Below are positions 3,307-59,317 of a DNA stretch of 64,000 nucleotides, piece after piece; positions within the stretch are counted from its first letter, which is position 1; every line of letters begins with the position of its first letter. The stretch is taken from assembly GCA_951799425.1 (NCBI GenBank), contig OX637405.1, positions 22,074,589 to 22,138,588 on the forward strand, read 5' to 3'. Position numbers and translations under genes: made by a program. The DNA is from Ilex aquifolium (Eukaryota > Streptophyta > Magnoliopsida > Aquifoliales > Aquifoliaceae). The notes beneath the pieces are model-generated. The model searched no databases and was not told the DNA's origin. It worked only from the letters and a program-made list of their open reading frames with translations.

Positions 3307-4890
3307 AAATCAAGTTCTCCTTCACTTCTCCTTGCGATCTAGGATAATCTATTCCTCGGATTGTTTTGGGCCAAGAACAAAAAGTGTTCTACTTGAAGAG
3401 AGCTACAAACACGTACCAAAGATTGCGGTTTCTCCAAGATCTCAATATCAGGATTTTCGGGATTGAGGCTTTGAAGCTTGAGTTGGGTGATTTGGGACTC
3501 TTTCTACAAGTATTACACTTCAAGATGTAGGGTTCTTCTCCTATCTAGGTTTATTTTCAACCTAGGGTTGTATATGGAATGGGTATCAAGATTAGAGATG
3601 GAATCTCGTGCCTAAATATACTCCTAGTGTAACTAGAGTATAGGAAATGGTATATGAATGGATAAAATCAATTGTAGCACGAATTAAGTTTGTTGAAATT
3701 GTGGTTTGTAATTTCATAAAGAAATGTGTTAAATAGGCCTTCTATCAATTGGGCATGCTATGCGTTTACATGAATTATGTGCCTTGTAGGTGTTTGATAA
3801 AATGCCTAATATGGATTTAAGTATGTTATTTGAATGAGAATGAGATAACATTTTTGGTAGTATTGTGAATTGTGATTATATGCCTATGATATAATTGACA
3901 ATTTGGGAAATATTAGTTGAGATGGAATATGTTCATAATATACTCATGATATGTTGAACATGCTATGGTAGTTGCAATGGTACATTACATTGTATATGCA
4001 CGGGAAGCATCGCATTCGTGGGCATGTGGCATGATTGTGGGTGTGTGCATGGTTTTGATCAAACACTATTCTTGGTAGATGATACGTAGGCTCGACAAAT
4101 TTGGGCTAAGGTTCGACTGAGTCGCATGGATTACATTGAAAACAAGGGTCGAGGTTAGCAAGAAGGGCTAGATTATCCCTCGGTTGCAAGACCTGGTGAT
4201 TTGGATACGCACTCGGTTGGTATTGAGTCCATAAAGTATGTCGGCGTACGCGGAGCCATTGGTGGAAGTTAATAGATGTCGTGTCGGTTAGGTACCCATT
4301 GGTGAAAGTTCATAAATACCTAACCCAAGAAAGACCCGAGATTTATAAATGGTTATTTGATGTGTAACATCAATGGCGGGGCTTGGAATGCCCGGATGCA
4401 TATGCACAACATTGCACGTGGTATGAGAGTCGGTGGAGGGCTTGGATTGCATTGCATGTGTGAGTCTTACCTCATCACATGGCATGTCATTGTGGCATTC
4501 ATTATTGAATTGTATATTCTTGAATGGATGGTGAATTGTGGAATTGAATGCAAACATCTCATATGCATCTAGGTTGGGGAGTATTCTCTTTTAAATATAC
4601 CCTATTGAGCGTGGCTCACCTTTTATGGGAACAACATTTCATGTGCGAGACGAGCGCTGGTGGATGACCTTCACTTGGGCCCTTGTTGATGAAGAAGCCG
4701 AGTAGTGGCTTTGAATTACATTTTTTAATTAAATTGTGTAATTCATTTTGAACTTGTATAATTGTGCCAAGAGTTTTGAAATAGACTCTTATGGACTAGA
4801 ATATGTGTATATGAATGAATGAATGTGTATGAAATGAGTTTGGTTGGACAAAGGTTGAAGTTTGAAAAGAATTGGGAAAAATTTGGGCCT

Positions 4891-5152
4891 AGGTACCGGT
4901 ACCTAAGTGATTAAGTACCGGTACCACGTTGTTGGATGGCCCAGGTACCGGTACCTTGACACACGGGTACCAATACATGGATTCCAGTAGGCTCAGGAAC
5001 TGGTACCACGACATTTAGGTACCGGTACCTAGCAAACAGTGGGTTCAGGTACCGGTACCTAAGTGATTAAGTACCGGTACCTGGCAAATAGAAGGGACCT
5101 GGCAGACAGAAGGCTCAGGTACTGGCACCATGTGTACGAGGTACTAGTACCT
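4891..5152 (+). repeat. GGTACC/ACCGGT palindrome array
   Basis: About 260 bases carry many copies of GGTACCGGTACC or close variants (AAGTACCGGTACC, GGTACTAGTACC, GGTACTGGCACC), separated by non-repeated spacers of about 10-25 bases. It lies close to the 3' end of the LTR. The same motif recurs in an unrelated Athila-like element at 14624-14882. Confidence 0.9.
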
Positions 5153-5478
5153 CTTCTAAAATTCTTTAAAAAATTTATATATAACTCTGCCAAGCCTTCA
5201 GATCTTAAGCCCTCTTGCTTATATTGTGGAATTTGTCAAACATTAAGTCCTAATTTATGGGCATAGACCTTGAAATGGTCAAGTGGTTGACGTGTGTACA
5301 AGTTATGTGTTTGAGAGTGCTCCGGTACAAGCCTGACTTTGCCCAAACTCCGTGTGGGTTACGATCCTGGTGAAGGAGATGCAACGATGTGGTATCATGT
5401 TATGTTGCGGGTATACTTCCGAGGGTTGATGGGTAATCAACGGGTTGTGAAAGGATCCCTGGATTTTGGGGCGTCACA

Positions 5479-22137: not shown

Positions 22138-23274
22138 TGACTTGATCCGAAATGTGTACACCCAAGTGTAGGCGGTCAAGTTGTAGTAATAATCCAGTTA
22201 AGTCCGGAGTCGAATCCACAGGGAACTAATGTTGGTGTTTCGAAGTAAGAAGTGATAGAGACCGTCGTGACTGGAACCCTTGAGATTTAAAGTTGTGATG
22301 TTTAGGGATTTTTCTGGACAGAATACAATATTCTTTCCAAGAGGATTTTCTAGACAAAATATAATAAGTTCTCAAATGTAACAATCACCCTTTAGTTCGA
22401 GGATCTGGACATGTAATTAACCATCTGGTTTATTATACTTGTGCTTGGGAACTCAATTAACCACCGTGTCAACATGAAGTTAATCGGAAGATAAATATGG
22501 ATTGTGAGAATTAATAACATGGTTCCAATGTCTTTGTAGAAGTTTACAAGAATTGTCTGTGCCGAGACTCAACCCATCGACAAACAAGCAAGTGTTTCTA
22601 CAAGGCATCGAACCATGGCATTAGTATTCCATTCTTTAAGTCAAGTACAATAATGGTGAAGATTGAAATGTAGTCATGAAGATCTAGCCGGGGTACTTGC
22701 CTTGAACCAATGAGTCTTTCTATGTCAAGAGTCATCTATGTCATAGAAAGTACTCACGATTATACAAAGTACCTTTGTTTTGCAAGATGCATTCAATCAT
22801 TCAATAAAAAAGTGAAATATAAAGCATTAAGCATAAAGCATAAACGAAATGCACAAATATAACTTCCAGATGATTATTACATGGCCATCACCTCTTACTA
22901 AAAACTGAATGAGAAACTACTCACTCTTCATAGCTTTTGTAAAGATAGAAAAGTGAGTAATGCTCATCCCTCCAAGTAGAGGAGTTACAAGGTAAAATAC
23001 ACTACACAAGGAGCCGATCTTCAACGAAGAATGAGTGAATCACGTTCCACCCTTCACGGCTTTGGTAAAGCTCTAGAAAAGTGGAAGAGTTTCACTCCTC
23101 TAAGGGAAGAAGAAAGCTCAAACAATGAAAGCAAATGAAACTAATAATGAAAGTAGAAGAAAGCTAGTCACTTTTGGAGGGTTTTCACCTCAACCAAAAG
23201 ATGATCTATATTCCTCTATGCAAGTAAATTTAAATCTAAGTCTAACTCTATAACTAGTTCTACCTTTAGTGTAG
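22138..23274 (-). repeat. 3' LTR of Athila 1, truncated
   Basis: The plus strand starts TGACTTGATCCGAAATGTG and follows the other Athila LTRs to about 23274. It then jumps to GTAGCACGCC, which belongs to the internal 3' region (compare 37226). U3, the TATA box, the polypurine tract and part of the 3' UTR were deleted. Confidence 0.88.
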
Positions 23275-26289: not shown

Positions 26290-26683
26290 TCTTCCTCTGT
26301 CCATGCCATTTGAACCATCAGTGACTCTTCTAATTTCCTGTCACACATAACGGGTAAGCAAAGTACCGGAATAGCATGGCGTGTCAGGATAATCCTTACT
26401 CTGCCCATTCACTATCTAGTTTAATCGATCGAGTCGCGACCGAAAATTGGTTCAGAACACTGATTATATTCTTTCATGTGAAAGATCCGGCCACATTGTT
26501 TGCAGGCACCAAGTCTTTTGGCACGACGACGTTTAGCAAGAGTGCTTCTGCCACACAGTGGTTTCCCTTGCTGTTCTCGGATTTCTATTTTTCTTACCAA
26601 TCTTGCCTTTCTCATTATCACAGAATGCACATCAGATGGAAAAGTGCGTAAAAATCCCAGACTAAACCAAATTTACTATCCAT
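26290..26683 (-). pseudogene. Athila 1 small basic Cys-bearing gene, broken
   Basis: This copy matches the intact 136-aa gene at 40161-40571. The open part (26630-26421) holds LCGRSTLAKRRRAKRLGACK followed by QCGRIF and YNQCSEPIFGR. It keeps the complete C-x2-C-x-R pair (CKQCGR) that the intact copy has partly lost. A frameshift near 26640 separates it from the start Met at 26683, and a stop at 26420 cuts the C-terminal half. The basic block plus Cys pattern resembles carlavirus-type nucleic-acid-binding proteins. Confidence 0.6.
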
Positions 26684-32855: not shown

Positions 32856-34552
32856 TAGACTTGATCCGAAATGTGTACACCCAAGTGCAGGCGGTCAAGT
32901 TGTAGTAATAATCCGGTTAAGTCCGGAGTCGAATCCACAGTGAACTAATGTTGGTGTTTCAAAGGAAGCAGTAATAGAGACCATCGTGACTAGAACCCTT
33001 GAGATTTAAAGTTGTGATGTTTAGGAATTTTTCTGGACAGAATATAAGATTCTTTCCAATGAGATTTTCTAGACAAAATATAATAAGTTCTCAAATGTAA
33101 TAATCACCCATTAGTTCGAGGATCTGGACATGTAATTAACCATCCGGTTTATTATACTTGTGCTTGGGAACTCAATTAACCGTCATGTCAACATGAAGTT
33201 AATTGGAAGATAAAGTTGGATTGTGAGAATTAATAGCATGGTTCCAATGTCTTTGTAGAAGTTTACAAGAATTGTCTGTGCCAAAACTCAACCCGTCGAC
33301 AAACAAACAAGTGTTTCTACAAGGCATCCAACCATGGCATTAGTATTCCATTCTTTAAGTGAAGCACAATAATGGTGAACATTGAAATGTAGTCATGAAG
33401 ATCTAGTCGGGGTTCTTGCCTTGAACCAATGAGTCTTTCTATGTCAAGAGTCATCTGTGTCATAGAAAGTACTCACGATTATACAAAGTACCTTAACTTT
33501 GCTAGATGCATTCAATTATTCAATAAACAAGTGAAATATAAAGCATTAAGCATAAACGAAATGCACAAATATAACTTCCGGATGATTATTACATGGCCAT
33601 CACCTCTTACTAAAGAGTGAATGAGAAACTACTCACTTTTCATAGCTTTTGTAAAGATAGAAAAATGAGTGATGCTCATCCCTCCAAGTAGAGGAGTTAC
33701 AAGGTAAAACACACTACACAAGGAGCCGATTTTCGATGAAGAATGAGTGAATCACGTTCCACCCTTCACGGCTTTGGTAAAGCTCTAGAAAAGTGGAAGA
33801 GTTTCACTCCTCTAAGGAAATAAGGAAGCTCAAACAATGAAAGCAAATGAAACTAATAATGAAAGTAGAAGAAAGCTAGTCACTTTTGAAGGGTTTTCAC
33901 CTCAACCAAAAGTTTATCTATCTTCCTCTATGCAAGTAAATGTAAATCTGAGTCTTACTCTACAAGTAGTTCTATCTTTCTATGTAAATGTAAGTCTCTA
34001 GTCTAAGTCTAAAAGCTCCCCCTTTGAAGCTCCCACAATGGGAGTATTTTTAGGCAAGGAGGAGGGGACAAGGGAGTGTGAATGAATAGTACAAGGTCTT
34101 CAAAGTCCAAGTGAGTGCCCCAAGACCCGGATAGAAAATCAACCACTCTGCAGCCTTTCTGGGGACAACATTCGAACGTTGTTTGACATTCGAATGTTGT
34201 CTCCTGTCTTTGTTTGATGGGCGTTCGAACGCCAGATGGAGTTTGAACCTCCTACTCAAGTGGCCTGTGCTCTTCTGTGAGAGCAACTCCCACACACCAT
34301 GTACCATTGCCCTTGCACTTAGCAGTCTGGTCCTCAATAATTCAGGACAACGTTCGAACATGGATTAGCGTTCGAACGTGGCACTCAAGTGCCTCTGTGT
34401 TTTCCTTCCTAGCTGCAACACACCATGTATCAGCACTTCAGCAGTCTGGTCTTCAAATAACTCAAGAGAACGTTTGAACGTGGATTGGCGTTTGAACGTT
34501 CTTGCCTTATTTCAAGCTTCTCCAATTTTCTTCCAGAACATGCTGGTGTTGC
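32856..34552 (-). repeat. 5' LTR of Athila 1, main part
   Basis: From the U5 end at 32856 to the insertion site at 34552. The remaining 132 bases of U3 are at 43196-43327, after an 8.6-kb insertion. Joining the two sides at one copy of GTTGC restores alignment with the other Athila LTRs (GCTGGTGCTGCATCCAAG at 43048-43065). The TATA box position reads TATTTTTA on the plus strand (34046-34053), so it is mutated here. Confidence 0.93.
34160..34502 (+). repeat. CGTTCGAACG array in the Athila 1 5' LTR
   Basis: Paired palindromes (for example 34170 and 34188, 34352 and 34369, 34469 and 34490) lie in U3, many with one CG decayed to TG or CA. Confidence 0.88.
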
Positions 34553-34736
34553 TGATTAGTACTTAAAATTGACATATTATTATGACATTTTAAGACTAAT
34601 TGTACTTTAATGGAGTTTAAGTGATGTCATTTCAGACCCTAAACTGAACAAGGACCCAAGAACAACAAGTACCACACTTGGATGTAGCACCAGCACATTA
34701 GAGCCCAAAATTGGAGAAGCTTGGAGCACAGCCAGA

Positions 34737-35102
34737 ACGTTCGAATGCCAACTCACGTTCGAACGTCCACATTACACTGTAACAGACTCAACTGCTGAGA
34801 GAAGGCGTGTTGCAGTGAGGAAAGAAGACTGAAGCTCTGAAGCACTTGAGTGTCACGTTCGAACGCCAACTCACGTTCAAACGTGCACTTGAGTTGATGG
34901 AAGACCAGACTACTGCAAAGAGTTGTAACTGAACCTCACAGAAGACCACCAGACTACTCGAGTGACAGGGTCAGAGCAAATCTGGCGTTCGAACTCCCTT
35001 AGTGCAAAAACAGAAGAAACGTTCGAATGGCAGTCAACGTTCGAACGCCCGTAGTGCAAAAACAGAAAGAACGTTCGAACGCCAACTCACATTCGAACGT
35101 TA
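34737..35102 (+). repeat. CGTTCGAACG array in the left LTR
   Basis: The palindromes are paired: 34737/34754, 34856/34873, 35019/35038 and 35069/35090, with CCAACTCA-type spacers, plus a single 34983. The array sits 100-460 bases upstream of the TATA box. Confidence 0.9.
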
Positions 35103-35198
35103 TCCACAGACTGGCAGCAGAGTTGTTGACTGTTCACTTGGACTTGGGCGGCAAACACTATTCCTTCACCCCCCCCCCCCTTGTCTCCTCCTCTTGCC

Positions 35199-35206
35199 TA
35201 TAAATA
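35199..35206 (+). promoter_or_regulatory. TATA box of the left LTR
   Basis: TATAAATA within CTCTTGCCTATAAATACTTC. It is conserved at the same LTR position in three other copies, so it is the likely LTR promoter. It points into the element interior. Confidence 0.8.
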
Positions 35207-36515
35207 CTTCCCTTGTTGGAGAGCTTTGGGAGCCAAGTAGGAAGTAGGAAGTATGAAAGTTGATGGAGGCTTAGACTCCCACTCTAATTGTAGATTTAGC
35301 TCATTTCCCTTGTATGAAGTCTTTATTTTAGAGATTAGTTTGGCTTTAGTCCAACATCTCTTGCTTGTTATAATAGTAGTTTTATGCTTATGCTTATGTT
35401 TATGCTTTCATTTTTCATGCATAGAAGAGATATAGCTCACCTTTTGGTTGAGGAAGCAACCCTCCAATTCTTGGTTGAGGAAGCCACCCTCCAAATGTGA
35501 CTAGCTTTCTTCTACTTTTATTGTTCATACATTTCACTTCCATTGCTTGCGCTTCTTTCTTTTTAGAAGAGTGAAACTCTTCCACTTTTCTAGAGCTTTA
35601 CCAAAGCCGTGAAGGGTGGAATGTGATTCACCCATTCTTTGTTAAAGATTAGCTACGCATTTGTTGTTACTTTATCTTATAAGTTCTCTACTTGGAGGGA
35701 TGAGCATCACTCACTTTTCTAGCTTTACCCAAGCCATGAAGAGTGAGTAGTTTCTCATTCACTCTTTAGTAAGAGGAGAAGGGCATGTATAAGTTATCCG
35801 GGAATCATATTTGTGCAATGTTTTTATGCTTAACGCTTGTTTCTTCTTGTTATTGGATGATTGATTGCATCTAGCAAAGCTAAGGTACTTTGTATAATTG
35901 TGGGCTCTTTCTATGACACGGATGACTCTTGCATAGAAAGACTCATCAGTTCAAGGCAAGTACCCCGGCTAGATTCTCATGACTACCCTTCAATCTTCCC
36001 CCTTATTGCACTTCATTTAAAGAATGGAATATTAATATCATGATTGGATGTCTTGTAGAAACACTTGCTTGTTTGTAGACGAGTTAAGTCTCGGCACAGG
36101 AAATTCTTGTAAACTTCTAGAAAGACATCGGAATCATGTTCTTAATTCTCACAATCCATCTTTATCTTCCGATTAACATACTGTTGACACGGGAGTTAAT
36201 TGAGTTATCAAGCACAATTATGACAAACCGGATAACTAACTACATGTCCAAATCCTTGCACTAAAGAGTGACTTTTTTTTAGCATTGATCTCCTATTTTG
36301 TTATGAAAATCCTCTTGGAAATAATCTTATATTCTGTCCAGGAAAAATCATATCTCACAGCAAATCTCAAGGGTTACAACCAATAGGTCTCTACCACTAC
36401 TTGCCTTAGAAATATCAACAAAAGTTCCCTGTGGATTCGACTCCGGACTCAAACCGGATTATTACTACAGCTTGACCGCCTGCACTTGGGTGTACACATT
36501 TCGGATCAAGCATCA

Positions 36516-38262
36516 AGTTTTTGTGCTCCAAGCTTTTATGCAACAAGCCGTTGAACCACTAGGTTTACCCTAGCAGACGAGTGTTGTCTCGTGAGGGTTT
36601 CCAGTGAAGCTACCCACAAACTTCAGTCGAACAGATGTACATAGGAGAATGCTGATTAAAGTAAATTAGCATCATGGTCGTTGGGACACCAGCTTCTCAA
36701 TTTTGACTTATGTCTCACACGTCCTCATTTCACAGGTATTCATTCTATGCAAAAATTATCATTTGTTACATTGGTATTTGAAATTCTCAATGCAGTAGGA
36801 ATGATCATTCAAGCAACATGAATTGTTATGTAACAAATACTCCCTTTTATCACCTTCCATGGATAGTTTCGATTTCACAAACCTCACGTAGTATACTCTC
36901 AGCAAAAGTTCACTCTGATTATAATGACTTGTTTCTCACAGATCATGTGATCAGAAGATGGCCAATCGAAAAATCACATGCACAATTTAGGAAAGGAGTG
37001 AAATTTTAAAGAAGCAACTACTTATGTTTGGCATAATCTCATGAAATAATATTAACGCAATTAAAAGGAATGCTATTTACCATATCCCAATTTTGATTAA
37101 CAACACATGCATGTAACAGACTTGAGATCAATTAGGGCTTTTCATAGGTTGTAGCGTGGCCAGAGGTCAGTGGCTAACGAAACGACGTCAGGGATTTTCA
37201 AAAGCTATCTTTTGTTTACGTATTGTAGCACACCTTTTTCTAACTTCTTGATATTTTGCCGAGAGATGACATTTCTTTCTTTCATTTTTCTCATTTTTCA
37301 CTTTCTTGGCAAGTTCTTGCCTTTTTGCTTTTGTTTTGTTTCAGTTGTTCCAATCAACTCTTCTTGGATGATAATCTCGAATGCTCCTTTTTCTTTTCCT
37401 TTTTCTGTATCATCTTACAAAGAGGATGTAAGAAAATCAGATAGTCAAGGTATGTCAAGTATGCTTTCTTGTGGATTGGTAATCATATAGGTTTATCAAA
37501 GAAAAATTCATACATTGATGGCTCAAACATGGCTAACGAGGGATAAATTTTGTCAAAGAAAGGTCTAAGGCTCAATATTATATCAAAGATGGCCTAAGAT
37601 CATTTCTCAAGCATGTGCACATGTATGTGTCGTATATGATGGTTCCTTGTGGGATATGTCAATAGATCACTTTTAAGTGCGTCAATCAAAGTAAGGTTAA
37701 TGAGATCATTCAAAAATTGAGAGTGAAAAGAATTTACTTGAGTAAACATTGATTGTCTCTCGAAAGCATCGTTAGGTTCGAAACTCACCCTGGTGTTCTT
37801 TGTTATCTCCACTGTGTATGTCGGGTTTTCCAGGGGGTATTGGTTATATACCAATTCCATTTCCGAGTCAAATCCTCCTGTACCTTTAAAATAAAAAATA
37901 TCGATGTACATATGAAAATTTAAGTATAGAGAGAATACCAATTTTTTTCAAGAAATGTGGTTTTAAGTCTCGGTTGATAAATGGATGTGTCAAACCGATC
38001 ATGTGCATATTTACTCTAGCAAGCATTCTTAATATCCACATTTGTTCCATCACCTTTTAATTTTTATGCTAAGTCTACAAATGCATTAAAACAAATAAAA
38101 GTGATAAATGGAACCATTCATTTCAAAATATCATCTTTTAATATCAACTGTTCGATTCATTCACAATCACAGAAAAACTTACAACTATCAAAGAAGAAAT
38201 TCATAAAAAGAAGCACTTTAAACAAACATAAAAACAAGAACAATAACAGAAATCCCTCTCTC
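36516..38262 (-). other. 3' UTR of the inverted-LTR element
   Basis: This non-coding region is collinear with 23275-24289 for its right half. The part nearest the left LTR (36528-36620) is the pre-polypurine-tract region seen in plus orientation at 17037-17110. The polypurine tract itself and about 80 bases before it are absent. No gene is seen. Confidence 0.8.
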
Positions 38263-39354
38263 TCACTCTCCTCCTTGTGCACCATGTCCACCCCTCATAA
38301 GCCTAAGGATCTCATCCTGCTTAGCTTCAATGCTAAGCATGATGTCCCGTAAAGAGCGTCGGGTGCTGGTGCTGGTGCTAGGGCCTTTATCTGCTGGCTG
38401 ATCTCTCTCTTCCTCCATCTCTCTCTCCTCTTGTGCATCAAGTTCCTCTTGTACTTCATCCACTCCGTGGGTAGGGGGCTCTTCTTGCCTTGCCGCTGGG
38501 CCGCCACTATGACTTTGGCTTCTCAGGAAGGAAGCCTTGTTCAGTGGCCCCATTGGCTTTTGGATTTCCATCTCAGGCCTCACCCTTACCCCATGTTCCG
38601 TGCACATTTCAGTCACCAATGTAGCAAAAGGGAGTGCACTCCTCTTTACATCACACCCCTTCTTCATTTCATTCAGGATGAGAAAGGGGAGGTCGATGCT
38701 ATGTCCTTTGCCAATGGCATACAAAAGTCGGGCCATGTCGAGTAAAATCTCATTCTTTCTTCCTACGGGAGCGAAGTTGAACACCGCAATCAAATTCATC
38801 ATTTTATATTTGTCGGTGAGCTCCCCTTGCCTCAAAAATCTCCTCCCTGCCCATGAAAAGTCAGCTACCCCCGTCAATTCCTTTCCCACTACATTCATTG
38901 ATATATCCTTCTTTGGTGGGTAGGTAGGGTTTTGCACTCGAGGTATTTCCTCCCTTATTTCTACGATGTATGCTTCATCCACGTCAATGTGGGTACCCCT
39001 AACATATGTCCGGATTGCGCCGTTGATGATCTCAGCGTTGGAGTAAAACTCCCGCACCAAGTCAACAACGGCGTCTCCACCATTCCTCAAATACCAGACC
39101 CACTCCCTCCTCTCCATTTCCTGCCTTATTCCAATCTCAGCAAAGTCATCAATCACAACATCTCTCTCACAAACAATTGCATGCTTATGGTAAAAAATTT
39201 CATACATTTCAGCCTTTAAGGCATTGGGAAACCTGGTCCTGTCATATCTCTTTGTCCTTTGCCTTCCTTCCCTTTCTTCTATCACCTCTTCTACAATGTT
39301 TGGATCTTGGTTCACTGGTGGAGCACGCCTGACATGGAGTTTCATCCTTGGCAT
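38263..39354 (-). CDS. Accessory protein, putative plant transposon protein type (363 aa, open)
   Basis: An uninterrupted 363-aa frame starts MPRMKLHVRR at 39354. Residues about 35-60 have RTKRYDRTRFPNALKAEMYE. The central part has WVWYLRNGGDAVVDLVREFY, HIDVDEAYIVEIREEIPRV, FSWAGRRFLRQGELTDKYKM and LPFATLVTEMCTEHGVRV. The last 90 residues are acidic and low-complexity (EEREMEEERDQPADKG), followed by RRSLRDIMLSIEAKQDEILR, a likely helical end. It resembles the plant-only family annotated as 'putative plant transposon protein' (PF20167 in my recollection). That family has no proven activity, and I see no catalytic signature, signal peptide or membrane segment. Related broken genes lie at 24290-25399 and 13329-14310. 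Openness fits the young age of this insertion. Confidence 0.82.
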   Translation of the reverse strand: MPRMKLHVRRAPPVNQDPNIVEEVIEEREGRQRTKRYDRTRFPNALKAEMYEIFYHKHAIVCERDVVIDDFAEIGIRQEMERREWVWYLRNGGDAVVDLVREFYSNAEIINGAIRTYVRGTHIDVDEAYIVEIREEIPRVQNPTYPPKKDISMNVVGKELTGVADFSWAGRRFLRQGELTDKYKMMNLIAVFNFAPVGRKNEILLDMARLLYAIGKGHSIDLPFLILNEMKKGCDVKRSALPFATLVTEMCTEHGVRVRPEMEIQKPMGPLNKASFLRSQSHSGGPAARQEEPPTHGVDEVQEELDAQEEREMEEERDQPADKGPSTSTSTRRSLRDIMLSIEAKQDEILRLMRGGHGAQGGE

Positions 39355-39900
39355 GGCGTTCGAACGTGGGTTTTGGTTTGAGAGGGTGCTGAAAAGTGCT
39401 GGAAACTTAGGGTTCTTGGTCTGGGATTGATGATTTTGATGTGGAGAGGAGTTATGGAGGATCGAATTTGGGTATTCTTGGGGAATGAGGGCGAGTTGAG
39501 GTCTGTGGAGTGAAAATGAGTTCTAGGGTTTTGAAAAATTTGGGGATTTTGGCTGAAAACGACGAACCAGGCTTTTATAGCCTGAGTTGTAACGTTCGAA
39601 TGTTGGTGACGTTCGAACGTGGGTAGAAGGATTTTAAACAGACCGTTCGAACGTGGTATGGCGTTCGAACGTGGTGAGCTCTCAGTACTTTTGTGTTCTG
39701 TCAGAGGCCAAAGTACTGCAAGTTCTCTTCGTTCGAACGTTCTATTGGCGTTCAAACGTTAATCTCGTTCGAACGGTCTATTGGCGTTCGAATGGACTGA
39801 GCTCCTAGTACTTTTAAGTTCCAGCAGAAGCTTCATCAGAGGCTGAGTACTGTAAGCAGTCAACGTTCGAACGTTACCTAGCGTTCGAACGTTGAACCAA
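39355..39900 (+). repeat. CGTTCGAACG array 5' of the 363-aa gene
   Basis: Palindromes occur at 39356, 39593/39610, 39645/39661, 39729/39748, 39766/39784 and 39862/39880. The first overlaps the gene start (GGCATGGCGTTCGAACGTG). The array separates the small basic gene from the 363-aa gene and may act as its promoter region; that role is inference. Confidence 0.9.
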
Positions 39901-40160
39901 AAATTAAAGTTTTTCTCCACTACACTATATACAATCAAAGAAGGCAAAACACACAAATTTAAAAAAAAAAAACTAAGGCGTCTCAGGATGAACCCCTACC
40001 CACGTTTCAGGTTGGTATTTTGGGGCATTCCTTACTCGGCCCATATTTTCATTTTAGTCAAAATAATTTATACAAAAAGATTTTTACACTTTTTACAACA
40101 AATTCGGACCTTTGGCTTTCACTCCCCCAACAAAAGTATATATTTCCTACAGAAAATTAT
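39901..40160. other. Spacer between array and small basic gene
   Basis: Non-coding. It is collinear with 26000-26290 of Athila 1: GTCTCAGGATGAACCCCTAC and GGCATTCCTTACTCGGCCCA match 26083 and 26128. Confidence 0.7.
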
Positions 40161-40571
40161 CTAATCCAAGTCTCCCTCTGTGTCTGTGTAGAATGGACAA
40201 CCAGTAACTCTCCCAAATTCCTCTCTCACAAATCGGTTAAGCACAGTACCGGAATAGCATGGCGTATCAGGGTAATCCTTACTCAGCCCATTCACTATCC
40301 AGTCTAATCGATCAAGTGCGCGACCGGAAATTGGTTCAGAACACTGGTTGTACCTTTTTTCGTGAAAAAATCTGTCACACTGTTTATAGGCACCAAGCCT
40401 TTTGGCACGACGGCGTTTAGCAAAGCTGCTTTTGCCACAGAGGGGTTTCGCTTGTTTTTCTTTGATTTCAGCCTTCCTTACTAATCTTGTTTTTCTCATG
40501 ATCATAGTATGTACATCAGATGGAAAGGTACGTAGAACTCCTAGGCTAAACCAAAAAAGATTTACATCCAT
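40161..40571 (-). CDS. Small basic Cys-bearing protein, carlavirus NABP-like (136 aa, open)
   Basis: The frame is open from the Met at 40571 to 40161. Residues about 24-42 are basic (MRKTRLVRKAEIKEKQAKP). A block AKRRRAKRLGAYKQCDRFF follows at about residues 51-70, then RYNQCSEPI near 75. The second half (LDRLDWIVNGLSKDYPDTPC) is not basic and the end is acidic. The run of Arg/Lys followed by a short Cys cluster resembles the cysteine-rich nucleic-acid-binding proteins of carlaviruses (Carla_C4 family), some of which act as silencing suppressors. The related copy at 26290-26683 has Cys where this one has Tyr (GACKQC against GAYKQC). It could be a nuclear RNA- or DNA-binding accessory factor. 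The viral link rests on motif similarity only. Confidence 0.62.
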   Translation of the reverse strand: MDVNLFWFSLGVLRTFPSDVHTMIMRKTRLVRKAEIKEKQAKPLCGKSSFAKRRRAKRLGAYKQCDRFFHEKRYNQCSEPISGRALDRLDWIVNGLSKDYPDTPCYSGTVLNRFVREEFGRVTGCPFYTDTEGDLD

Positions 40572-40911
40572 GATTGCTAAATTTTAAGACTCACTATCTG
40601 GTTCTTTAACGTCTGCCAGTCACAAAGACGATTGAAGCTGATTCATAAGCATAATCATCAATTTATACAATCAATGTTCAAACATGATCAACAACGACAA
40701 TAAAAATTTTAAAAATTTACGAAAATTATGAACGAAAATGAACTGATGAACTGATCATACCCCCCAACCTAAACTGAACATTGTCCCCAATGTTTCGAAT
40801 TTACCGGTTCATGGAGTGTGGAGACGAGGTTGAATGGTAGAGATCTGTTCACCGCTTAGACCTACAAATAAAAACACAAAAATTACTCATCTGTGCGCAG
40901 CTCTTAGGTGT
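40572..40911 (-). other. Post-integrase spacer of the inverted-LTR element
   Basis: Non-coding. It carries the Athila block CCCCCAACCTAAACTGAACA (from 40761) and TTGTCCCCAATGTTTCG, as in Athila 1 at 26890. Near 40911 it joins abruptly to mid-gag sequence, marking the deletion of pol. Confidence 0.75.
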
Positions 40912-41237
40912 TTCCTGTTGTTGAAGGGTTCCCTACATGGAATTGGCCTTGTGGTTGCTTTGGTTGGGCAGGAAACTTGCCATTTTCGTGTATGACCATG
41001 GATTGAGTCAAATTTTGGATGTGGCTTTTAAGATCCTCAAAAGATTGAGTGGTCTGGGTTTTGAAATCAGTGAAAGCCTGTGTGGAATTATTGTTATAAT
41101 TCATTTGGCTTTGCATGAACTGATTCAGTGTATCCTCAAGGTTCCTCTTTTGTGGTGGTTGGTATGGTTGATATGCAGGAGGTCCTTGAGGTGGTGGGTA
41201 TGGCCCTTGTTGTTGGTTCATCGGTATTGGTTGTGTG
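40912..41237 (-). pseudogene. Athila gag fragment
   Basis: About 325 bases of mid-gag are read on the minus strand: PMNQQQGPYPPPQGPPAYQP, LEDTLNQFMQSQMNYNNNST, then FTDFKTQTTQSFEDLKSHIQ. It matches Athila 2 at 55786-56113 more closely than Athila 1. It is joined directly to the U5 end of the right LTR at 41238, so the PBS and about 1.25 kb of leader and gag start are missing. On its other side it is joined to post-integrase spacer. Confidence 0.9.
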
Positions 41238-42540
41238 TTGATCCGAAATGTGTACACCCAAGTGCAGGCGGTCAAGCTGTAGTAATAATCCGGTTTGAGT
41301 CCGGAGTCGAATCCACAGGGAACTTTTGTTGATATTTCTAAGGCAAGCAGTGGTAGAGACCTATTGGTTGTAACCCTTGAGATTTGCTGTGAGATATGAG
41401 TTTTCCTGGACAGAATATAAGATTCTGTCCAAGAGGATTTTCTTAACAAAATATGAGATAAATGCTAAAAAAAGTCACTCTTTAGTGCAAGGATCTGGAC
41501 ATGTAGTTAGTTATCCGGTTTGTCATAACTGTGCTTGATAACTCAATTAACTCCCGTGTCAACAATAAGTTAATCGGAAGATAAAGATGGATTGTGAGAA
41601 TTAAGAACATGATTCCGATGTCTTTCTAGAAGTTTACAAGAATTGTCTGTGCCTAGACTTAACCCATCTACAAACAAGTAAGTGTTTCTACAAGACATCC
41701 AATCATGATATTAATATTCCATTCTTTAAATGAAGTGCAATAAGGGGGAAGATTGAAGGGTAGTCATGAGGATCTAGCCAGGGTACTTGCCTTGAACTGA
41801 TGAGTCTTTCTATGCAAGAGTCATCCGTGTCATAGAAAGAGCCCACAATTATACAAAGTACCTTAGCTTGCTAGATGCAATCAATCATCCAATAACAAGA
41901 AGAAACAAGCGTTAAGCATAAAAACATTGCACAAAATATGATTCTCGGAGAACTTATACATGCCCTTCTCCTCTTACTAAAGAATGAATGAGAAACTACT
42001 CACTCTTCATGGCTTGGGTAAAGCTAGAAAATTGAGTGATGTTCATCCCTCCAAGTAGAGAACTTATAAGATAAAGTAACAACAAATGCGTAGCCAATCT
42101 TTAACAAAGAATGGGTGAATCACATTCCACCCTTTACGGCTTTGGTAAAGCTCTAGAAAAGTGGAAGAGTTTCACTCTTCTAAGAAAGAAAGAAGCGCAA
42201 GCAATGGAAGTGAAATGTATGAACAATAAAAGTAGAAGAAAGTTAGTCACATTTGGAGGGTGGCTTCCTCAACCAAGAATTGGAGGGTTGCTTCCTCAAC
42301 CAAAAGGTGAGCTATCTCTCTTCTATGCATGAAAAATGAAAGCATAAACATAAGCATAAGCATAAAACTACTGTTATAACAAGCAAGAGATGTTGGACTA
42401 AAGCCAAACTAATCTCTAAAATAAAGACTTCATACAAGGGAAATGAGCTAAATCTACAATGAGAGTGGGAGTCTAAGCCTCCATCAACTTTCCTACTTCC
42501 GACTTCCTACTTGGCTCCCAAAGCTCTCCAACAAGGGGAG

Positions 42541-42548
42541 TATTTATA
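42541..42548 (-). promoter_or_regulatory. TATA box of the right LTR
   Basis: TATTTATA on the plus strand (TATAAATA on the minus), at the conserved LTR position. Confidence 0.8.
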
Positions 42549-42647
42549 GGCAAGAGTAGGAGACAAGAGGGGGGTGAAGGAATAGTGTTTGCCGCCCAAG
42601 TCCAAGTGAACAGTCAACAACTCTGCTGCCAGTCTGTGGATAACATT

Positions 42648-43008
42648 CGAACGTGAGTTGGCGTTCGAACGTTCTTTCTGTTTTTGCACTACGGGCGTTC
42701 GAACGTTGACTGTCGTTCGAACGTTTCTTCTGTTTTTGCACTAAGGGCGTTCGAACACCAGATTTGCTCTGACCCTGTCACTCGAGTAGTCTGGTGTTCT
42801 TCTGTGAGGTTCAGTTACAACACTTTGCAGTAGTTTGGTCTTCCATCAACTCAAGTGCACGTTCGAACGTGAGTTGGCATTCAAACGTGACACTCAAGTG
42901 CTTCAGAGCTTCAGTCTTCTTTCCTCACTGCAACACGCCTTCTCTCAGCAGTTGAGTCTGCTACAGTGTAATGTGGACGTTCGAACGTGAGTTGGCGTTC
43001 GAACGTTC
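42648..43008 (+). repeat. CGTTCGAACG array in the right LTR
   Basis: The pairs mirror those at 34737-35102: 42648/42664, 42698/42715, 42859/42878 and 42978/42995. Confidence 0.9.
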
Positions 43009-43195
43009 TGGCTGTGCTCCAAGCTTCTCCAATTTTGGGCTCTAATGTGCTGGTGCTGCATCCAAGTGTGGTACTTGTTGTTCTTACGTCCTTGTTCAGT
43101 TTAGGGCCTGAAATGATATCACTTAAACTCCATTAAAGTACAATTAGTCTTAAAATGTCATAATAATATGTCAATTTTAAGTACTAATCAGTTGC

Positions 43196-43327
43196 ATGAA
43201 AGTTTGATATTCATTGCCTTTGGGCCCTTGTACAATTTATGTTCTGAAATGTCATCATTTAAACTCCATCAAAGTATAATTAGTCATAAAAAGGGCATAG
43301 TAACATGCTAATTTTAACTACTAATCA
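43196..43327 (-). repeat. 5' LTR of Athila 1, outer U3 part
   Basis: These 132 bases end AACTACTAATCA and continue the LTR interrupted at 34552. TCATG at 43328-43332 is the right TSD of Athila 1. Confidence 0.9.
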
Positions 43328-49666: not shown

Positions 49667-51587
49667 TGACTTGATCTGAAATGTGTACACCCAAGTGCAG
49701 GCGGTCAAGCTATAGTAATAATCCGGTTTGAGTCTAGAGTCGAATCCACAGGGAGCTCTTGTTGGTATTTTTGGGGTAAGCAGTGGTGGAGACCTATTGA
49801 TTGTAACCTTTGAGATTTGTTGTGAGGTGTGAGATTTCCTGGACAGAATATAAGATTTTTTCCAAGAGAATTTTCTTAACAAAATATGAGATAAGCTCTA
49901 ATGAAAAAGAGTCACTCTTTAGTTCAAGGATCTGGACATGTAGTTAATTATCCGGTTTGTTATACTTGTGCTTGGTAACTCAATTAACTACAGTGTCAAC
50001 AACAAGTTAATCGGAAGATAAAGATGGACGGTGAGAATTAAGAACATGATTCCGATGTCTTTCTAGAAGTTTACAAGAATTGTCTGTGCCGAGACTTAAC
50101 CCGTCTACAAACAAGCAAGTATTTCTACAAGACATCCAACCATGACATTAATATTCCATTCTTTAAGTGAAGCACAATAATGGGGAGGATTGAAGGGTAG
50201 TCATGAAGATCTAGCTGGGGTACCTGCCTTGAACCGATGAGTCTTTCTACGCAAGAGTCATCTGTGTCATAGAAAGAGCCCACGGTTATACAAAGTACCC
50301 TAGCTTTGCTAGATGCAATCAATCATCCAATAAGTAAGGAGAAATAAACGTTAAGCATAAGAACAATGCACAAATATAATTCCCGGATAATTTATACATG
50401 CCCTTCTCCTCTTACTAAAGAGTGAATGAGAAACTACTCACTCTTTATGGCTTTGGTAAAGCTACAAAAGTGAGTGATGTTCATCCCTCCAAGTATAGGA
50501 CTTACAAAATGAAATAACAATAAACAAGGAGCCAATCTTTAACAAAAAATGAGTGAATCACATCCCACCCTTCACGGCTTTGGTAAAACTCTAGAAAAGT
50601 GGAAGAGTTTCACTCCTCTAAGAAAGAAAGAAGCTCAAGCAATGGAAGTGAAGTACATAAACAATAAAAGTAGAAGAAAGCTAGTCACATTTGGAGGGTG
50701 GTTTCCTCAACCAAGGAATGGAGGGTTGCTTCCTCAACCAAAAGATGAACTAACTCCCTTCTATGCATGTAAGTGAAAGCATAAGCATAAAACTACTTTT
50801 ATAACAAGCTAAGAGATGTTGGACTAAAGCCAAACTAATCTCTAAAATAACTACTTTATGCAAGGAAATGTAAGCTAAATATACAATATGAGTGGGAGTC
50901 TAAGCCTTCATCAACCTCTCTACTTGGTCTCTTATGTTCTCCAACAATGGGAGTATTTATAGGCAAGAGAAGGGGACAAGAGGAGGTGAAGGAATAGTGT
51001 ATGCCGCCCAAGTCCAAGTGAAAAACCAACTACTCTGCAGCCATTCTGTGGAGAACGTTCGAACGTGAGTTGGCGTTCGAACGTTGTCTCTGTTTTTTGC
51101 TTTATGGTCGTTCGAACGTTTCTTCTGTCTGTGCAGTATGGGCGTTCAAACGCCAAATGTGGTCTGACCTTCTCACTCAAGTGGCCTGTGGTCTTCTGTG
51201 AAGTTCATTTCCACACTCTATGCAGTAGTCTGGTCTTCAATCAACTCAAGTGCACGTTCGAACGTGAGTTGGCATTCGAACGTGACACTCAAGTGTCTCA
51301 GAGCTTCAGAGTCTTCTTTCCTAGCTGCAACATGCCTTCTCTCAGCATTCAAGTCTGCTACAGTTCAATGTGGACGTTCGAACGTGAGTTGGCGTTCGAA
51401 CATTCTGGCTGTGCTCCAAGCTTCTCCAATTTTGTGCTCTAATGTGTTGGTATTACATTCAAGTGTGGTACTTGTTGTTCTTGAGTCCTTGTTCAGTTTA
51501 GGGCCTGAAATGACATCACTTAAACTCCATGAAAGTACAATTAGTCTTAAAACGGCATAGTAAAATGCTAATTTTAAGTGCTAATCA
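49667..51587 (-). repeat. 3' LTR of Athila 2
   Basis: From TGACTTGATCTGAAATG to TTTAAGTGCTAATCA, flanked on both sides by GCCAC. Compared with 57362-59312 it shows scattered substitutions and lacks the TTGGACTAAAGCCAA duplication seen there at 58513-58542. A CGTTCGAACG array lies at 51055-51403. Confidence 0.95.
50954..50961 (-). promoter_or_regulatory. TATA box of Athila 2 3' LTR
   Basis: TATTTATA on the plus strand, the conserved LTR promoter position. Confidence 0.78.
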
Positions 51588-54330: not shown

Positions 54331-56373
54331 TCAGAGATGGGGGACGATTATCCCTGCATCCAAGAGCTTGAGTACCTCAGTTCTCACAACTTCCTTCATG
54401 TGAGGGTTTAGTCGTCGCTGCATTTGACGAGAGGGTTTTAAACCTTCTTCAAGGTATATAGCATGATTGCAGATTAACGGGCTTATACCTTTCAAGTCAG
54501 CGATGGTCCACCCAATGGTGTTTTTATGGCTTTGAAGAACTTCAATCAGTTTAGACTCTTGCAAGTCTGTGAGCTTAGATGAAATTACTACTGGGTATGG
54601 CTCGTTCTCTCCTAAGAATGCATATTTGAGGTCAGATGGGAGAGGTTTCAATTCAGGCTTTGGTGGCCTAACATTTGATGAGATTGGCTTTGTGCCACTT
54701 GGTGAAATCTCTTCGAATTTGGGGGCCCATGTCTTAACAGTATGAGTAGGGAAATTTTGTGGATTTGGATCATCATCTGTTGTTTCGGATGAGATGAACT
54801 CTAGTAGAGAAGATTCAGTAGGGTCTTCAAAAAATGTGTCATTCAGATGTTCCTGTATCAAAGATTCAATGGAGTTTATTTCTCTTTCTTCCTTTTCTTC
54901 TTCTGGATGCTTAGCAATATTGAAAATTTTCAGTTCGAGAGTCATATTCCCAAAAGTTAATTTCATGACTCCATTCCTGCAATTGATTAGTGCATTAGAA
55001 GTTGCTAAGAAAGGTCTATCAAGAATGATGGGAATTTGGTTCTCTGAATATATTGCTGGCTGAGTATCCAGAACAATGAAGTCCACAGAGAAGACAAAGT
55101 TGTCCACTTGGACAAGTACATCTTCAACAATGCCTCTAGGGGTTTTGACAGATCTTTCAGCCAACTGGAGTGTGACACAAGTGGGTTTGAGTTCACCCAG
55201 ACCCAACTGTTGGTAGACAGAGTAAGGTAGCAAATTCACACTGGCTCCAAGGTCTAACAGTGCTTGTTCAATTCTGAAGTTTCCAATGATACAGGACACA
55301 GTTGGACACCCTGGGTCTTTGTATTTTGGAAGGATTTTGTGTTGAAGAAAGGCACTCGTTTGTTCTGTTAGGAAGGCTCTTTTTTGGACATTCTGGCTTC
55401 TCTTGACTGTGCACAAGTCTTTTAGAAACTTGGCATAAGACGGAACTTGTTTGATTGCGTCCAGAAGTGGGATGTTGATATTTACTTGCTTAAAAAGCTC
55501 ATAAATTTTAGGCTGATTTTTCAACTTCTGTTTGGTTTTGAGTCTATGAGGAAAAGGAGCAGGAATGAAACACGAAGGTTCTCTTTCCTCAAAAGGTTCT
55601 GGCTCTTGTTCAATCATGGGCTCAGGTTCTTCCTCAAGTTTAGTCTCAATTGGTTCAGGCTCAAATGATGGGTTGACTGGGATTGACTCAGGTCTTGGCT
55701 TTGGAATGAGTATGTCTCTGATGGTCTTGTCAATCACTTTGCCACTTCTTAGTGTAGTGACAACTGGGGCTTGGTCTTGTGTGTTTCCTGTTGTTGAAGG
55801 GTTCCCCACATGGAATTGGCCTTGTGGTTGCTTTGGTTGGGCAGGGAACTTGCCCTTTTCGTGTGTGGTCATGGATTGGGTCAACTTTTGGATGTGGCTT
55901 TTAAGATCCTCGAAAGATGGAATGGTCTGGGTTTTGAAATCAGTGAAAGTGTGTGTGGAATTATTGTTATAGTTCATTTGGCTTTGCATGAACTGATTCA
56001 GTGTGTCCTCAAGGCTCCTCTTTTGTGGTGGTTGGTATGGTTGATATGCGGGAGGTCCTTGAGGTGGTGGGTATGAACCTTGTTGTTGATTCATGGGCAT
56101 TGGTTGTGTGTTCTTCCAACTGAAGTTAGGGTGGTTCCGCCACCCTGGATTGTATGTTTCAGAGTATGGGTTGGAGTAAGGCTTGTTGAAGTTGGAAACT
56201 GCATGTGTTTGTTCCAACAAGACCTCTTTGAATGCTGGGATGGTAGGACACTCCCCAGTAAGGTGTCCTGTTAGTGCACAGATTCCACACACTTGTTCTG
56301 TGGAAGAGCTAACATCAACTTGATGGACTTTCTTCATCTCTAAAGCTTCAAGCTTTCGAGACAACGTAGACAT
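54331..56373 (-). CDS. Athila 2 gag C-terminal part, protease and start of RT (680-aa open part)
   Basis: This is the longest open frame of the window. Near residue 30 it has a zinc knuckle, CGICALTGHLTGEC (C-x2-C-x4-H-x4-C), for RNA binding. A Pro/Gln-rich part follows (PPPQGPPAYQPYQPPQK). An acidic stretch (KLEEEPEPMIEQEPEPFEER) leads to the protease core IEQALLDLGASVNLLPYSVY with its catalytic Asp. The frame ends in the RT leader LNPHMKEVVRTEVLKLLDAG. The true polyprotein starts further up at 57243; two stops (about 56563 and 56372) separate the parts. The frame is a fragment rather than a working gene. Confidence 0.88.
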   Translation of the reverse strand: MSTLSRKLEALEMKKVHQVDVSSSTEQVCGICALTGHLTGECPTIPAFKEVLLEQTHAVSNFNKPYSNPYSETYNPGWRNHPNFSWKNTQPMPMNQQQGSYPPPQGPPAYQPYQPPQKRSLEDTLNQFMQSQMNYNNNSTHTFTDFKTQTIPSFEDLKSHIQKLTQSMTTHEKGKFPAQPKQPQGQFHVGNPSTTGNTQDQAPVVTTLRSGKVIDKTIRDILIPKPRPESIPVNPSFEPEPIETKLEEEPEPMIEQEPEPFEEREPSCFIPAPFPHRLKTKQKLKNQPKIYELFKQVNINIPLLDAIKQVPSYAKFLKDLCTVKRSQNVQKRAFLTEQTSAFLQHKILPKYKDPGCPTVSCIIGNFRIEQALLDLGASVNLLPYSVYQQLGLGELKPTCVTLQLAERSVKTPRGIVEDVLVQVDNFVFSVDFIVLDTQPAIYSENQIPIILDRPFLATSNALINCRNGVMKLTFGNMTLELKIFNIAKHPEEEKEEREINSIESLIQEHLNDTFFEDPTESSLLEFISSETTDDDPNPQNFPTHTVKTWAPKFEEISPSGTKPISSNVRPPKPELKPLPSDLKYAFLGENEPYPVVISSKLTDLQESKLIEVLQSHKNTIGWTIADLKGISPLICNHAIYLEEGLKPSRQMQRRLNPHMKEVVRTEVLKLLDAGIIVPHL

Positions 56374-57355: not shown

Positions 57356-58672
57356 AAAACTTGACTTGATCCGAAATGTGTACACCCAAGTGCAGGCGGT
57401 CAAGCTGTAGTAATAATCCGGTTTGAGTCCAGAGTCGAATCCACAGGGAGCTCTTGTTGGATTTTTGGGGTAAGTAGTGGTGGAGACCTATTGATTGTAA
57501 CCTTTAAGATTTGTTGTGAGGTGTGACATTTCCTGGACAGAATATAAGATTCTTTCCAAGAGAATTTTCTTAACAAAATATGAGATAAGCTCTAATGAAA
57601 AAGAGTCACTCTTTAGTTCAAGGATCTGGACATGTAGTTAATTATCCGGTTTGTTGTACTTGTACTTGGTTACTCAATTAACTCCCGTGTCAATAGCAAG
57701 TTAATCGGAAGATAAAGATGGACTGTGAGAATTAAGAACATGATTCCGATGTCTTTCTAGAAGTTTACAAGAATTGTATGTGTCAAGACTTAACCCGTCT
57801 ACAAACAAGCAAGTGTTTCTACAAGATATCCAACAATGACATTAATATTCCATTCTTTAAGTGAAGCACAATAATGGGGAGGATTGAAGGGTAGTCATGA
57901 AGATCTAGCTGGGGTACTTGCCTTGAACCGATGAGTCTTTCTATGCAAGAGTCATCCGTGTCATAGAAAGAGCCCACAGTTATACAAAGTACCTTAGCTT
58001 TGTTAGATGCAATCAATCATCCAATAAGCAAGGAGAAATAAACGTTAAGTATAAGAACAATGCACAAATATAATTCCCGGATAATTTATACATGCCCTTC
58101 TCCTCTTACTAAAGAGTGAATGAGAAACTACTCACTCTTCATAGCTTTGGTAAAGTTAGAAAAGTGAGTGATGCTGATCCCTCCAAGTAGAGGACTTACA
58201 AAATGAAATAACAATAAACAAGGAGCCAATCTTTAACAAAGAATGAGTGAATCACATCCCACCATTCACGGCTTTGGTAAAGCTCTAGAAAAGTGGAAGA
58301 GTTTCACTCCTCTAAGAAAGAAAGAAGCTCAAGCAATGGAAGTGAAGTACATAAACAATAAAAGTAGAAGAAAGCTAGTCACATTTGGAGGGTGGCTTCC
58401 TCAACCAAGGAATGGAGGGCTGATTCCTCAACCAAAAGATGAACTAACTCCCTTCTATGCATGTAAGTGAAAGCATTAGCATAAAACTACTTTTATAACA
58501 CGCTAAGAGATGTTGGACTAAAGCCAATTGGACTAAAGCCAAACTAATCTCTAAAATAACTACTTCATACAAGGAAATGTAAGCTAAATCTACAATATGA
58601 GTGGGAGTCTAAGTCTCCATCAACCTCTCTACTTGGTCTCTTATGTTCCCCAACAATTGGAGTATTTATAGG

Positions 58673-58680
58673 CAAGAGGA
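58673..58680 (-). promoter_or_regulatory. TATA box of Athila 2 5' LTR
   Basis: TATTTATA on the plus strand within GGAGTATTTATAGGCAAGAG, directed toward the gag gene. Confidence 0.8.
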
Positions 58681-58760
58681 GGGGACAAGAGGGGGTGAAG
58701 GAATAGTGTATGCCGCCGAAGTCCAAGTGAAAAATCAACTACTCTGCAGCCAGTCTGTGA

Positions 58761-59126
58761 AGAACGTTCGAACGTGAGTTGGCGTTCGAACGTTGTCTAT
58801 ATTTTTGCTTTGTGTTCGTTCGAACGTTGTCGGTCGTTCGAACGTTTCTTCTGTCTGTGCATTATGGGCGTTCAAATGCCAGATGTGGTCTGACCTTCTC
58901 ACTCAAGTGGTATGTGGTCTTCTGTGAAGTTCATTCCATACTTTATGCAGTAGTCTGGTCTTCAATCAACTCAAGTGCACGTTTGAACGTGTGTTGGCGT
59001 TCGAACGTGACACTCAAGTGTCTCAGAGCTTCAGAGTCTTCTTTCCTAGCTGCAACATGCCTTCTCTCAGCAATCAGGTCTGCTACAGTTCAATGTGGAC
59101 GTTCGAACGTGAGTTGGCGTTCGAAC
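58761..59126 (+). repeat. CGTTCGAACG array in Athila 2 5' LTR
   Basis: Pairs at 58764/58783, 58818/58833, 58981/58998 and 59100/59116, mostly joined by the spacer GAGTTGG, with centres about 15-19 bases apart. Confidence 0.9.
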
Positions 59127-59317
59127 GTTCTGGCTGTGCTCCAAGCTTCTCCAATTTTGTGCTCTAATGTGTTGGTGTTACATTCAAGTGTGGTACTTGT
59201 TGTTCTTGAGTCCTTGTTCAGTTTAGGGCCTGAAATGACATCACTTAAACTCCACCAAAGCACAATTAGTCTTAAAACGACATAGTAAAATACTAATTTT
59301 AAGTGCTAATCAGCCAC

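Follow-up and report, generated by a model that had tools for sequence, protein, structure and literature searches.

Inverted arrangements of long terminal repeats (LTRs) arise in retroviral complementary DNA (cDNA) through autointegration, in which the processed ...CA end is joined. Among LTR retrotransposons of grasses, template-switch complexes with 5-bp target-site duplications (TSDs) have been described in which two cores are combined with three LTRs, and for which a switch between R regions was proposed (Sabot and Schulman 2007, PMC1950507). DIRS-1, which uses a tyrosine recombinase, normally has inverted LTRs (excerpts of PMC5633606), and an inverted LTR pair is termed a classic structure for a locust Gypsy family, in passages that give neither junction nor TSD (excerpts of PMC8786324). 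Here we describe an LTR retrotransposon insertion in Ilex aquifolium whose LTRs are inverted, with both U3 termini pointing outward and a perfect TSD. It lies in a stretch of 64,000 nucleotides (nt), hereafter the window (assembly GCA_951799425.1, contig OX637405.1, forward-strand positions 22,074,589-22,138,588), and all results reported below rest on this one ~800-Mb genome assembly.

The window element resembles the grass complexes as an apparently aberrant product of reverse transcription with 5-bp TSDs, closely related outer LTRs and an extra LTR that would stem from a strand-transfer error (PMC1950507). Its extra LTR, however, is terminal and inverted, both of its outer ends are U3, and it has no third internal LTR shared by two cores, only a 14-nt remnant of a further LTR; PMC1950507 mentions no inverted LTR. 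With DIRS-1, as excerpts of PMC5633606 describe it, the element shares flanking inverted LTRs, whereas the ordinary copies of the window family have direct LTRs and the integration produced a 5-bp TSD. No recombinase family was matched among four open reading frames (ORFs) scanned with Pfam. The closest likeness is to non-autonomous derivatives of Athila-type Ty3/Gypsy elements, its putative lineage: the LTRs run TGAT...ATCA, the TSD is 5 bp, and the interior is that of pol-less copies (L030-L032 and L034) whose canonical form has the primer-binding site (PBS)-like TGGCGCCGTTGCCGGGGA. Unlike these derivatives, the window element has inverted LTRs and lacks both a PBS and a 3' polypurine tract. 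Unlike the product of retroviral autointegration, its U5 junction keeps the leader, and two U3 ends remained free. A literature search by title and abstract, with coverage excluding most subscription journals, found among the records listed no integrase-type element combining inverted LTRs, a TSD and junctions. On the reading favoured below, the inverted-LTR, two-U3 insertion is a new form of template-switching retrotransposition.

Structure of the insertion and its junctions

The left LTR (34553..36515, plus strand; 1.96 kb) starts with TGATTAGTAC at 34553 and ends in CATCA at 36511-36515, an end set by 4/4 canonical 3' LTRs. The right LTR (41238..43190, minus strand) closes with GTACTAATCA at 43190, its U3 terminus likewise outermost. 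An earlier note, made from the letters of this stretch, had read these strands and termini in the same way and had proposed a pairwise LTR alignment; that alignment gives an inverted match end to end, at full length and 96.8% identity, with a Kimura two-parameter (K2P) distance of 0.028 (34 transitions and 20 transversions over 1951 sites).

GTTGC can be read immediately outside both LTRs (34548..34552 on the left and 43191..43195 on the right, neither assigned a strand), as the same note had stated. The interrupted sequence is an LTR of a related family on the minus strand (32861..43327, as ~32861-34552 plus 43191-43327), and joining its flanks gives an empty site, GCTGGTGTTGCATGAAAG, with 153 occurrences genome-wide. 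In 8/8 empty-site loci fetched from these 153 (L001-L008, uninterrupted copies that all represent one host-LTR segment) GTTGC is present once. Because every fetched empty site holds it singly, GTTGC is a real TSD, and excision restores a continuous host LTR, just as had been claimed from the letters. The observation itself—inverted LTRs, U3 tips outward, perfect 5-bp TSD—is thus confirmed.

To define the junctions we used ordinary copies sharing the interior, located via their 5' junction. L030, L031, L032 and L034 have direct LTRs and 89-96% identity to 36536-40863 or beyond, and 5-bp TSDs flank 4/4 canonical copies (GGAAG, ACAAG, ACCAT, GAAAT). The direct LTR orientation canonical for the family is absent from the window element, and the PBS after the 5' LTR and the polypurine tract before the 3' LTR are both missing at private junctions. 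In the canonical arrangement, a 5' LTR is followed by the leader AGTTTT and then by TGGCGCCGTTGCCGGGGA or a close variant, taken as the PBS, while 3' LTRs end in GATCAAGCATCA (...CATCA) and pass into host DNA with no leader (4/4). The leader follows the 5' LTR in 20/20 loci (L009-L028), all picked by a pattern that includes AGTTTTTG, and it is also found at 5' junctions picked independently of it, namely those of locus L063 and of two window elements.

The left window LTR carries this same leader (36516..36521, plus strand): past the end of the LTR proper at 36515 it reads on as CATCA-AGTTTT-TG and only then diverges, placing the break at 36521-36523, the PBS border. Because the sequence continues in this way, the left LTR has the U5/PBS border as its inner end, where an integrated 3' LTR would have stopped at CATCA. 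That border is the natural end of the minus strand, and the 6-nt leader between LTR and PBS would mark an unprocessed U5 cDNA end. Judged by its letters, an inverted LTR carrying the leader is not a flipped integrated 3' LTR. Beyond the leader lie 14 nt of U3 (36522..36535, minus strand; U3 nt 165-178, with a 14/14 match to 34717-34730) in the sense of the interior, reading AAGCTTGGAGCACA, and their first 2 nt (TG on the plus strand; CA) are common to the PBS start, a microhomology. The interior then resumes at 36536 without its last 95 bp, which include the polypurine tract; alignment to canonical copies identifies 36536-37220 as normal 3' interior.

At the right inner junction, U5 is truncated past CGGATCAA and fused to gag via an AA overlap at 41237. 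This break falls ~12 nt short of the U5/PBS border and differs in kind from the left one: a deletion private to this copy has taken away the PBS together with the 5' part of gag. The earlier note had placed both inner breaks at or within about 8 bases of the two U5/PBS borders, which is right for the left break and wrong for the right. Each inner junction occurs once genome-wide at up to 3 mismatches.

A second insertion, and the kinship of the LTR pairs

A genome search for further copies with two U3 ends, suggested by the earlier note, turned up an independent case. We surveyed exact 32-base U3 matches in two variants (69/69 matches listed for one, 100 of 157 for the other) and counted adjacent matches no more than 15 kb apart, leaving out mixed-variant pairs and counting runs of three hits as two pairs. 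Among the matches listed there are 46 same-strand pairs (18 + 28), not each confirmed as one element, and 2 opposite-strand pairs. Both of the latter, the window element from which we started and a pair on C11, are flanked by perfect TSDs.

The C11 insertion (L063, C11:3725830-3735145, with U3 matches at C11:3725830 and 3735114) has its U3 ends outward and AGGCC on both sides. Its left side is normal, with LTR, leader, PBS-like stretch and gag in order, until the interior breaks off in the Transposase_32 region; ~50 nt of U5 in sense orientation separate this break from the inverted LTR. Starting in the inverted LTR, the sequence crosses the join as ...GGATCAAGCATCAAG followed by CTGTAGTAAT (CATCAAG/CTGTAG, the slash marking the join), and at its tip the inverted LTR has TCAAG, complementary to a CTTGA that lies ~40 nt upstream (right LTR 1894-1898 of 1938), so that the join appears to bear the signature of a snap-back of the LTR on itself. 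The next switch, after the U5 piece, shows AAAAG microhomology. L063 is an independent insertion with the same anatomy as the window element, and a second insertion suggests a repeatable error rather than a freak event. Within L063, positions 3747-5472 hold a nested insertion (TGATTCGCAC...TTAATCA) with GCCAC flanks.

We also compared the LTRs themselves. In a first tree with 24 LTRs from outside the window, the window LTRs are sisters (96%), and they share 20 positions against the majority, 8 of these also against the outgroup. Support for the window pair is 99% with other loci in the tree; with L063 added, the window pair is recovered at 98% and the L063 pair at 100% bootstrap, the two pairs falling in different sublineages. 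A family of inverted-LTR copies descended from one ancestor was accordingly rejected, the window junctions each being found once and L063 belonging to another LTR sublineage. The DNA search for relatives scored 40 of 4552 candidates and did not bring up the right LTR of the window element itself, so that relatives closer than those in the trees may exist.

In the host LTR family, 100 of 153 markers listed give 12 same-strand pairs and 1 opposite pair, and this last (C7:25731594/25742312) has no TSD, its flanks being ATGCC and GTGCT. Another opposite pair, C2:31920089/31939367, lies 19 kb apart and also has no TSD (flanks GACAA and GCTAC); by their flanks, both pairs are taken as unrelated insertions. 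A locus on C1 (L061:1004-4184, C1:24186003-24189183) holds an ordinary copy with an inverted LTR fragment (nt 1-1283, from the U3 tip onward) lodged in its 3' LTR and a loss of ~53 bp of target, possibly a one-ended insertion. The fragment is truncated and sits within a 3' LTR, and we did not count the locus as a clean further case.

Formation of the two-U3 insertions

We favour, at a probability of roughly 0.6, one insertion event in which integrase used an aberrant linear cDNA with a U3 terminus at each end, formed by fold-back of strong-stop DNA. The two-U3 intermediate is strongly supported; its enzymology is what we infer. In retroviral reverse transcription, plus-strand strong-stop DNA spans approximately from the U3 tip to the U5/PBS border, and in both insertions the extra LTR starts at the U3 tip and stops on or close to that border, an agreement in extent that points to a strong-stop origin of the extra LTR. 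The earlier note had proposed just such a two-U3 cDNA, one end of it a strong-stop-like LTR product joined in reverse, and its proposal gains support from the leader on the inverted LTR and from L063.

Under this model, plus-strand strong-stop DNA (U3-R-U5-leader, with its 5' end set by the polypurine tract and its 3' end at or near the PBS border) would fail to transfer to the PBS before integration. Its 3' end would anneal by a few bases to a plus-sense LTR—TG/CA in U3 for the window element, TCAAG/CTTGA ~40 nt upstream in U5 for L063—and be extended over a short stretch of 14 nt or ~50 nt, respectively. A template switch upstream into the interior would follow, with copying through to the 5' LTR tip; it is the sense-orientation LTR remnant in the joined partner that suggests fold-back priming and then a template switch. 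The product would be LTR(inverted)-interior-LTR with two natural U3 tips, which integrase would insert with the normal 5-bp duplication because it accepts U3 tips. In the window copy, a second jump or a later deletion would have taken out the PBS and the 5' part of gag. Lacking direct R repeats, such a product would be a dead end for further retrotransposition.

Several points weigh against this account. The window LTRs differ by 2.8% K2P, so their identity at insertion is not directly demonstrable; the window microhomology is only 2 nt, and the step from the U3 remnant to the interior has no clean microhomology (CATAA/AAGCTT). As a free-standing match the 14-nt U3 remnant is not significant (E 0.22 to 0.53), and it draws its weight from its position between two breaks. 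In L063 the break is 4 nt short of the PBS border under fold-back, or 4 to 9 nt if the 5-nt match is left uncounted, and the predicted U5 hairpin pairs a neighbouring GATCAAG copy, not the terminal TCAAG, with 15/200 shuffles folding equally well (z -1.64). By plain identity the L063 LTRs are not mutual best matches (both are slightly closer to L051 and L057, and the right one also to L052), and their sister grouping thus rests on the tree and not on plain identity. The model leaves second-strand completion without a polypurine tract unexplained, and microhomology with short templated pieces is equally typical of joining by the host's DNA polymerase theta. The evidence, moreover, is the sequence of a single assembly.

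The main rival, which we consider unlikely, holds that two cDNAs each gave one U3 end to a concerted integration and that the host joined their distal ends by microhomology end joining. This would likewise yield two U3 ends, one TSD, the microhomologies (CA and AA; CTTGA and AAAAG) and short templated pieces, but in both insertions the inverted partner consists of one LTR whose break lies on the U5/PBS border or no more than 9 nt from it, and random breakage of a full cDNA would rarely place both ends there. The LTR pairs also group as sisters, as if from one particle, although two co-packaged cDNAs could match too. Less probable again is that, before integration, a broken cDNA was ligated to a reversed double-stranded LTR fragment (the 3' LTR end of a cDNA), with no fold-back by reverse transcriptase. 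An unprocessed U5 end with leader is indeed the expected right end of linear cDNA, whereas the sense LTR remnants (14 nt of U3; ~50 nt of U5) demand a further LTR copy and the L063 join is snap-back-like. Release and flip of the cDNA's own 3' LTR alone is disfavoured by the extra 14-nt U3 remnant.

We regard rearrangement of a normal element within the chromosome, by post-insertion inversion or nested insertion, as very improbable. Rearranged and nested copies are encountered in this genome, but an inverted integrated 3' LTR would be without the leader, and two events would be needed, with breakpoints at U3 tips and TSDs intact. Simple post-insertion inversion of the 3' LTR, which the earlier note had already thought unlikely, is rejected on account of the PBS border and of a leader that all 4 canonical 3' LTRs lack. 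Had the left LTR been inserted separately, which that note had named as grounds for abandoning its reading, a TSD of its own should flank its U5 end; AGTTTTTG is there instead, with no GTTGC after it, and a separate solo LTR is rejected. Autointegration is also rejected, the joined end in the window being unprocessed (it keeps AGTTTT) and the L063 join falling within CATCAAG. An assembly error is just as improbable: the region is rich in repeats, but private microhomology junctions and perfect TSDs on two contigs would be unusual for collapsed or mis-joined repeats. A two-U3 cDNA formed by strong-stop fold-back is the reading we retain.

Interior, neighbouring repeats and significance

The interior (36536..41237, minus strand) is that of a pol-less non-autonomous element, 92.3% identical to canonical L034 (41239-36536 against L034 1372-6072), in which pol is absent as in the window copy; L033 has an extra 4.3 kb where pol would sit, a place inferred from the alignment gap. 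On the minus strand, an ORF of 363 aa (38263..39354) encodes Transposase_32, a putative plant transposon protein (Pfam PF20167, E 5.9e-23), and one of 136 aa (40161..40571) resembles a carlavirus nucleic-acid-binding protein (Pfam PF05515, E 8.9e-7). The segment at 40902..41237 (minus strand), presumably the C-terminal part of gag by its position, matched no Pfam family in the domain scan and is 92.9% identical to 55775-56110 of another element in the window. Carlavirus-like ORFs are also found at 26424-26669 on the minus strand (Viral_NABP, E 3.5e-9) and in a canonical copy (L031:423-839, E 3.2e-10), with a best E of 3.3e-6 for the Carla_C4 model. The presence of such an ORF in a retrotransposon family suggests that a plant RNA virus and an LTR retrotransposon exchanged a gene.

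Elsewhere in the window, a solo LTR at 49667-51587 has GCCAC on both sides, and a second LTR at 57366-59312 shares its right-hand flank (131 bp, 94%), suggesting either local duplication or repeated insertion at one site. At 22142-23267, one deletion seems to have removed most of U3 from the host element's 3' LTR, along with the 3' interior next to it. On C10, three host-LTR markers at an exact spacing of 4542 bp, with a fourth 14 kb beyond (C10:29230113-29253308), suggest a tandem array.

Strong-stop fold-back could be a recurrent, integration-competent side pathway of this LTR family, a proposal we make tentatively, with two-U3 elements forming perhaps ~2% of full insertions (1/47 adjacent U3 pairs among the matches listed, the window pair excluded). 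Annotation software looks for direct LTRs, and if the proposal is true two-U3 elements will have been overlooked for this reason. A simple search would suffice to count such elements in any plant genome assembly. Their junctions record where plus-strand strong-stop DNA may go astray, and they carry convergent LTR promoters on either side of a long inverted repeat, an arrangement that could be a source of double-stranded RNA and silencing. The two cases provide genomic evidence that a pair of U3 ends can serve a retrotransposon integrase for an insertion with a normal target duplication; if our reading is true, they would show from a natural setting that a plant Ty3-type integrase can complete concerted integration with a pair of U3 ends and without a U5 end.

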